Positions 17,601-19,325 of a stretch of DNA of 35,564 bases are shown here, piece by piece. Positions within the stretch are counted from its first letter, which is position 1. Every line of letters begins with the position of its first letter. The notes beneath the pieces were generated by a model. That model was not told the DNA's origin. It was given only the letters and a program-made list of their open reading frames with translations, and made no database searches. The position numbers were made by a program, and so were the translations under genes. Source of the DNA: a virus; the IMG/VR virus record IMGVR_UViG_3300042868_004356, positions 1 through 35,564 of that record. The stretch is one strand, 5' to 3'.

Positions 17601-18248
17601 ATGCCAAAAATTAGCATTACCTCAAAACTCGACGGGATTCGCTCGTGGTCTTTGCAAGCCCTAGACACATGTCCAGGGTCTATTTCATCGCCTGGTGTGC
17701 TGGTTGACGCCTGTCGCGGGTGCTATGCGACGACAGGAAATTACCGGTTTGCCAATGTGCGCGCGCCAAGGGAGTTCAATCGCACGGATTGGGAGCGGTT
17801 CGAATGGGTTAACGAAATGGTGCAGGAATTAGAACGGGATCGCTATTTTAGGTGGTTTGATTCGGGTGACATGTATAGCCTCGCGCTAGCGGAGAAAATG
17901 CTTGAGGTAATGATCCGCACACCTTGGTGTAAGCATTGGCTACCTACCCGCATGCACAAATTCCCGAAATTCGCTATGGTGCTGCGCGAAATGCAAGCAT
18001 TGGATAACGTTATGGTGCGCCCGTCGTCGGATTCGATTGTCGGGGTTTTTACGCCTGATCTGCACGGATCCGTTATCGTTCCCGATTCTAGGGTTAACCC
18101 TGACATGGTCACATTGTGCCGTGCATACGAAAACGACGGGAAATGCTCTGGTTGCCGTGCCTGTTATGACAAAACTGTCCCTGTTATCGCATACCCTGCA
18201 CATGGCAAAACAATGGCAAAAGTGATCAGAATTAAAGTGGCGGGTTAA
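17601..18248 (+). CDS. GP88-like cysteine-rich protein
   Basis: The 215-aa protein resembles the phage "gene product 88" family. Cysteines sit at 24 (LDTCPGS), 38 and 41 (DACRGCYATTGNYRF), then 172 and 181/184/187 (KCSGCRACYDK), enough to hold an iron-sulphur or zinc cluster. The central region has the conserved-looking YFRWFDSGDM and HWLPTRMHKFP. The family's biochemical role is unknown; nucleic-acid modification or redox chemistry has been considered by analogy. It is followed by a Cys-rich zinc-type protein, suggesting a paired function. Confidence 0.8.
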   Translation: MPKISITSKLDGIRSWSLQALDTCPGSISSPGVLVDACRGCYATTGNYRFANVRAPREFNRTDWERFEWVNEMVQELERDRYFRWFDSGDMYSLALAEKMLEVMIRTPWCKHWLPTRMHKFPKFAMVLREMQALDNVMVRPSSDSIVGVFTPDLHGSVIVPDSRVNPDMVTLCRAYENDGKCSGCRACYDKTVPVIAYPAHGKTMAKVIRIKVAG

Positions 18249-18251
18249 ACC

Positions 18252-18548
18252 ATGCAAAACAACACTTATCCAAAATTTGACACTCATGCGGCCGCTACAT
18301 GTTTTCATTGTGCCGCGCCAATTGGTCGCGAAAAACCGCTTTTCTATGGTTTTCCGGCCGGTGCATATGGTATTTGGTGCGACACATGCAAACTTCGCAC
18401 CTATTACGATACGCCGGATAAATCGGTCAAATTCGACGTTAAAGGCGATCCACTAACGCCAACATGCGGGTGCGGCTGCACTACGCCACGAAATCAATGG
18501 GGCGCGCGCGACGGCTGGCCTGAGTGCCCCGATTGTGGCATGGTTTGA
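18252..18548 (+). CDS. Cys-rich zinc-ribbon-like protein (98 aa)
   Basis: The protein has several Cys pairs: CFHC near 17-20, CDTC near 43-46, CGCGC near 72-76 and CPDC near 92-95. These suit two zinc-ribbon-type sites. Basic and aromatic residues lie between them. It starts three bases after the GP88-like stop, so expression is coupled. It may be a nucleic-acid-binding or partner protein of the GP88-like product. No specific family was recognised. Confidence 0.65.
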   Translation: MQNNTYPKFDTHAAATCFHCAAPIGREKPLFYGFPAGAYGIWCDTCKLRTYYDTPDKSVKFDVKGDPLTPTCGCGCTTPRNQWGARDGWPECPDCGMV

Positions 18549-19303: not shown

Positions 19304-19325
19304 AGGGGCTTTTGCCCCTTTTTTA
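19304..19325 (+). terminator. Terminator of early plus-strand operon
   Basis: Stem AGGGGC/GCCCCT (19304-19309 with 19314-19319), TTTT loop, then a T-run through about 19324. It ends the operon that began at 16626 and lies back to back with the opposite-strand terminator at 19331-19358. Confidence 0.9.

Follow-up and report, generated by a model that had tools for sequence, protein, structure and literature searches.

A GP88-family gene and its cysteine-rich neighbor in a freshwater phage as a candidate modular two-gene cassette

Two adjacent genes of a freshwater phage raise the question of whether a protein of the GP88 family and the small cysteine-rich protein encoded beside it form a two-part system, and what such a pair might do. 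The genes lie 3 bases apart in the window, our term for the whole 35,564-nucleotide stretch of an IMG/VR virus record analyzed here. An earlier reading made from the letters alone (the sequence-only reading) had proposed an uncharacterized two-part enzyme system in the early operon, with a radical-SAM-like or Fe-S fold to be looked for. Both genes are real, and ORF calls place them exactly where that reading had them (Table 1). Placement in an early operon could not be substantiated, as the genes sit within a short plus-strand stretch flanked by two minus-strand blocks, and no promoter-like sites above expectation were found around them. The locus is a variable stretch rich in small unknown genes, and a literature search found no useful paper on GP88, DUF7227, DUF5131, or the radical SAM mobile pair.

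Two conserved cysteine-rich proteins

The 215-aa protein matches the Pfam family PF17338 (“Gene product 88”) with 96.5 bits against a curated cut-off of 24.4, confirming its designation as GP88-like; it also matches DUF7227 more weakly (3.9e-9) and falls within PHROG 1392, a family of unknown function. It contains eight Cys in total, at positions 24, 38, 41, 110, 173, 182, 185, and 188. The sequence-only reading had listed seven, with the first group correctly numbered, each residue of the second group one position too low, and C110 missed. Across 56 GP88 homologs (members below 88% identity), C24, C38, C41, C173, C182, C185, C188, and H201 are invariant, whereas C110 is not conserved. When the set is widened to 103, the C24 column is blurred, which we attribute to a gapped alignment of its loop, and the other seven of these Cys/His positions remain invariant. 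Homologs down to about 26% identity keep the seven Cys and H201, and query patterns for GP88 matched at least 600 stretches in one collection of viral contigs. Given this conservation across both sets, the 3 + 4 arrangement of Cys with a His is a real GP88 signature.

Predicted strand 1 (residues 14–16) is followed by a loop, proposed here to bind a cluster, that carries the N-terminal Cys group, and the WFDSGD motif lies just past predicted strand 2 (residues 82–85), where its position would match that of the SAM-binding GGE motif in radical-SAM enzymes. The C-terminal Cys/His group may be a second metal or cluster site. Further invariant residues are R84, D87, W113, P115, T116, N136, R140, and S142; judged from sequence conservation, the invariant non-Cys positions look more like an active site than like part of a bare structural zinc protein.

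The 98-aa partner has nine Cys, all of them invariant among 7 aligned homologs. The four Cys pairs attributed to it were nearly right: three are CxxC motifs, but the fourth is a CxCxC with three Cys (72/74/76). In both proteins, the clusters thus exceed what chance would give, on conservation grounds. The motifs suggest that the partner is likely of a double zinc-ribbon type. It matched no family in Pfam, PHROGs, or NCBIfam; queries with two different members found it in none of 50,697 phage records; and comparison with solved structures gave a single chance-level match (E 1.1).

Table 1. Features of the GP88 locus, in window coordinates
Feature	Position	Strand	Evidence
GP88-family gene, 215 aa	17601..18248	+	PF17338 2.8e-27; AlphaFold2 pLDDT 91.2, pTM 0.89; Cys/His conservation
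N-terminal Cys group C24-x13-C38-x2-C41-Y-A, codons	17670..17723	+	56/56; C38 and C41 103/103
W85-F-D-S-G-D90, codons	17853..17870	+	D87, G89, and D90 in at least 102/103; secondary structure
C-terminal group C173-x8-C182-x2-C185-x2-C188 ... H201, codons	18117..18203	+	All five residues 103/103
One-gene presence/absence segment, approximate extent	18246..18545	+	Comparison with L002
98-aa partner gene	18252..18548	+	C17xxC20, C43xxC46, C72xCxC76, C92xxC95; likely two zinc ribbons
Terminator-like hairpin at the end of the plus-strand stretch	19304..19319	+	

Fold and superfamily of GP88

An AlphaFold2 model of GP88, built on 95 homologs, shows strands alternating with helices in a partial barrel, and the order of its elements, with the Cys loop after strand 1, fits a partial (beta/alpha)6 barrel. 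The model is confident, but its direct Foldseek comparison with the PDB is not significant (best E 0.078, with an implausible superposition). The highest-probability matches in that comparison (0.51) include the radical-SAM proteins NifB and BlsE, over ∼80 residues at E 0.42–0.47. Sequence searches against solved structures, with the single protein and with a profile, gave no match. Among viral predicted structures, the model matches other GP88 and DUF7227 proteins, archaeal viruses included, as well as one “Gp37/Gp68-like” structure (6.5e-5), and because of this last match DUF5131 (the Gp37/Gp68 family) was compared with GP88.

The Pfam GP88 model matches 33 of 63 viral DUF5131 proteins at E ≤ 0.1 (best 3.6e-7) and a bacterial DUF5131 protein (L279) at 4.8e-5; the window's own genome has no PF07505 (DUF5131) match. 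In hhalign comparisons, GP88 reached probabilities of 62–78% with DUF5131, 78–88% with DUF7227, and 18–59% with PHROG 2554; nine unrelated phage families used as controls gave no more than 2.8%. By these sequence comparisons, GP88 joins a superfamily with DUF7227, PHROG 2554, and DUF5131, with Cys motifs in common.

DUF5131 in turn has a match of 1.5e-26 to the NCBIfam model TIGR04471 (“radical SAM mobile pair protein A”), which falls below that model's own cut-off. The top PDB matches of its AlphaFold2 model (pLDDT 89.6) are spore photoproduct lyase (probability 0.96–1.00, E 0.0035 or worse), a radical-SAM DNA repair enzyme. With DUF5131 as an intermediate, these results support a radical-SAM-like origin of GP88 and a distant relation to both TIGR04471 protein A and the lyase. 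The chain falls short of proving GP88 to be a radical-SAM enzyme, because the canonical radical-SAM motif CX3CX2C is absent from it and replaced by C-x13-C-x2-C, and because direct hhalign comparison of GP88 or DUF5131 with spore photoproduct lyase proteins was negative (at most 0.5%). The 215-aa protein also has no match, radical-SAM or other, in NCBIfam. The radical-SAM-like guess is thus borne out indirectly, through DUF5131, but not by the signature motif.

Set against described families, the window protein is a regular member of PF17338 and PHROG 1392 with an identical Cys plan, and a zinc-type partner is not described for that family. DUF7227 (PF23872) and PHROG 2554 share with GP88 the 3 + 4 Cys plan and the C-terminal C.A...C..C..C...H pattern, and occupy the slot upstream of the same partner; they lie outside the GP88 branch and have an N-terminal spacing of C-x3-C-x5-C-Y, unlike that of GP88. 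DUF7227 occurs in about 180 phage records, mostly from Pseudomonas, and in the one Pseudomonas record examined the partner was absent next to the DUF7227/PHROG 2554 gene. DUF5131 has a barrel region homologous to GP88 but lacks its C-terminal four-Cys group. TcmP (TIGR04474) adjoins DUF5131 in five of six loci tested (L279, L280, L284, L287, and L289), consistent with a conserved pair that sets a precedent for a neighbor gene accompanying a three-Cys barrel. TcmP does not match the 98-aa partner and was rejected as a partner of GP88, being found in 0 of 39 GP88 records, the window's genome included.

The pairing seen from either gene

Viewed from GP88, the partner is optional. Among 80 close relatives (73–100% identity), some of whose loci end soon downstream, only one (L001) carries the 98-aa gene beside GP88, and there both proteins are identical to those of the window. 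L002, with a GP88 of 97% identity, cleanly lacks the partner, and there the end of GP88 joins sequence that aligns to the window from 18546 onward (98.6% identical). A generic Cys-rich gene downstream of all GP88s was likewise rejected, since an ORF with two CxxC motifs immediately follows GP88 in 7 of 259 loci, about the same rate as the background (84 of 4816).

Several other neighbors of GP88 were recorded. A 55-aa two-CxxC ORF overlaps the gene by 4 bases in L005. In L212 and L251, the end of GP88 is overlapped by 14 bases by another small protein with two CxxC motifs (CDRCLREYLLELM...LCIRCFN type), which may represent a separate sort of partner. Directly after GP88, a Manatee Spring phage has an ArdC-type antirestriction gene with ArdcN and zincin-like metallopeptidase domains (L086:5701-6549). 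A small protein that ends in a conserved CIDAPCCGCCTI tail, the only part matched by PHROG 5664 and 2656, recurs near GP88-superfamily genes (L386:3369-3623 and L064:4957-5208). In Pelagibacter phages (cluster 5), GP88 is directly followed by a gene whose product is of low complexity and implausible as a partner. In a Cellvibrionales MAG contig (L197:1244-4711), a long bacterial-looking ORF continues in frame into a GP88 protein, probably through an assembly chimera.

Viewed from the partner, the association is much tighter. Two pattern-based scans of viral contigs, a sampling that favors close relatives, yielded 19 partner-coding loci with products 60–100% identical, and every one has a superfamily gene upstream on the same strand. 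The distance between the two genes is −1 to +84 bases in 17 loci, and 220 and 413 bases in the other two. The upstream gene belongs to GP88 in 4 loci, to DUF7227 in 8, to PHROG 2554 in 6, and to a segment-permuted DUF7227-like form in 1; one of the four GP88s is only 30% identical to that of the window. The 19 loci are not independent events, since upstream flanks are syntenic among many partner-bearing phages.

Exchanges between branches are stronger evidence than this count. On the partner tree, the branch label of the upstream gene (slot 1) changes 7 times, where the minimum would be 3; most inner branches are weak, and the sister relationship of L389 (PHROG 2554) and L402 (GP88) is strongly supported. 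Identity between the flanks of these two loci is about 87% on the upstream side and 86% on the downstream side, where similarity begins 12 bases ahead of the slot-1 gene's end; inside that gene there is no similarity (L389:2246-3001 vs L402:2159-2842). The slot-1 branch was therefore exchanged in place while the partner was kept. Co-occurrence across phages, the test named for the two-part idea, accordingly fails from the side of GP88 and succeeds from that of the partner.

Slot 1 also varies internally. In the permuted DUF7227-type protein, a block corresponding to residues 34–92 of normal members, which includes both the third Cys (CYA) and the G-D motif, has moved to the C-terminus. The form occurs in two phages (L400:2285-2986 and Phage DSL-LC04, L414:3001-3696; 66% identity over 98% of the length), making an assembly error unlikely.

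A candidate cassette and its alternatives

We tentatively prefer to read the locus as a modular two-gene phage cassette, with a radical-SAM-like GP88 protein in slot 1 and a double zinc-ribbon accessory protein in slot 2. The two proteins probably work together, given that in public viral contigs the partner was only ever found beside a superfamily member. The two-part idea thus survives in part, as a modular locus whose partner is never found without a superfamily protein but is itself optional. Slot 1 would hold a small beta/alpha-barrel-like protein of the GP88/DUF7227/PHROG 2554/DUF5131 superfamily that most likely works in a radical-SAM manner, with a cluster held by the three-Cys loop after strand 1, the G-D motif after strand 2 placed for contact with SAM, and the C-terminal four-Cys group holding a second cluster or zinc. 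The zinc-ribbon protein would probably recruit substrate for, or stabilize, any slot-1 superfamily member; we favor this accessory role because the partner tolerates different slot-1 proteins. As a first guess, the substrate may be nucleic acid, since DUF5131 resembles spore photoproduct lyase. A bolder version, which we regard as rather doubtful, would make GP88, DUF7227, PHROG 2554, and the segment-permuted form interchangeable catalytic subunits acting on nucleic acid or host defense, with the zinc-ribbon partner dictating a common substrate.

The chief alternatives are an adaptor that binds only zinc, and simple hitch-hiking in a mosaic genome. GP88 might be a non-redox, zinc-stabilized barrel whose seven conserved Cys and H201 all serve as zinc ligands; having lost SAM chemistry, it would act as a binding adaptor, for example in counter-defense. 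The non-canonical spacing of its N-terminal Cys, the conserved His beside the four C-terminal Cys, which suits zinc, its small size, its location among small unknown genes, and the antirestriction gene following it in the Manatee Spring phage would all fit this reading; against it, the conserved G-D motif together with R84, W85, D87, W113, T116, N136, and R140 suggests an active site, and GP88 is related to the radical-SAM-like DUF5131. We consider an adaptor of this kind unlikely, yet a serious contender. A similarly unlikely case, ranked slightly lower, is that the two genes are neighbors without functional significance, the partner hitch-hiking in a conserved locus and the slot-1 swaps reflecting ordinary phage mosaicism. 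This would explain the rarity of the partner among close GP88 relatives, the syntenic upstream flanks, and the near-background rate of two-CxxC ORFs after GP88; it accords poorly with a superfamily gene from one of four branches preceding every partner, and with the L389/L402 swap having brought in another branch of the same superfamily rather than an unrelated gene.

A role of the pair in making or protecting a modified base of the phage's DNA appears improbable. Radical-SAM enzymes include nucleic-acid modifiers and repairers, and the nearest solved fold of DUF5131 is a DNA repair lyase, both of which speak for it; the neighbors common to GP88 phages, however, show no modification pathway, and there is no independent sign of modification.

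For the modular cassette, natural variation already offers ready-made genetic comparisons in the L389/L402 swap and the empty site of L002. Of the phage families without known function, GP88 and DUF7227 belong to the commoner ones, and they have predicted relatives in archaeal viruses; with an enzyme class that can be put to the test and a first candidate for a partner, these DUFs would become open to assay.
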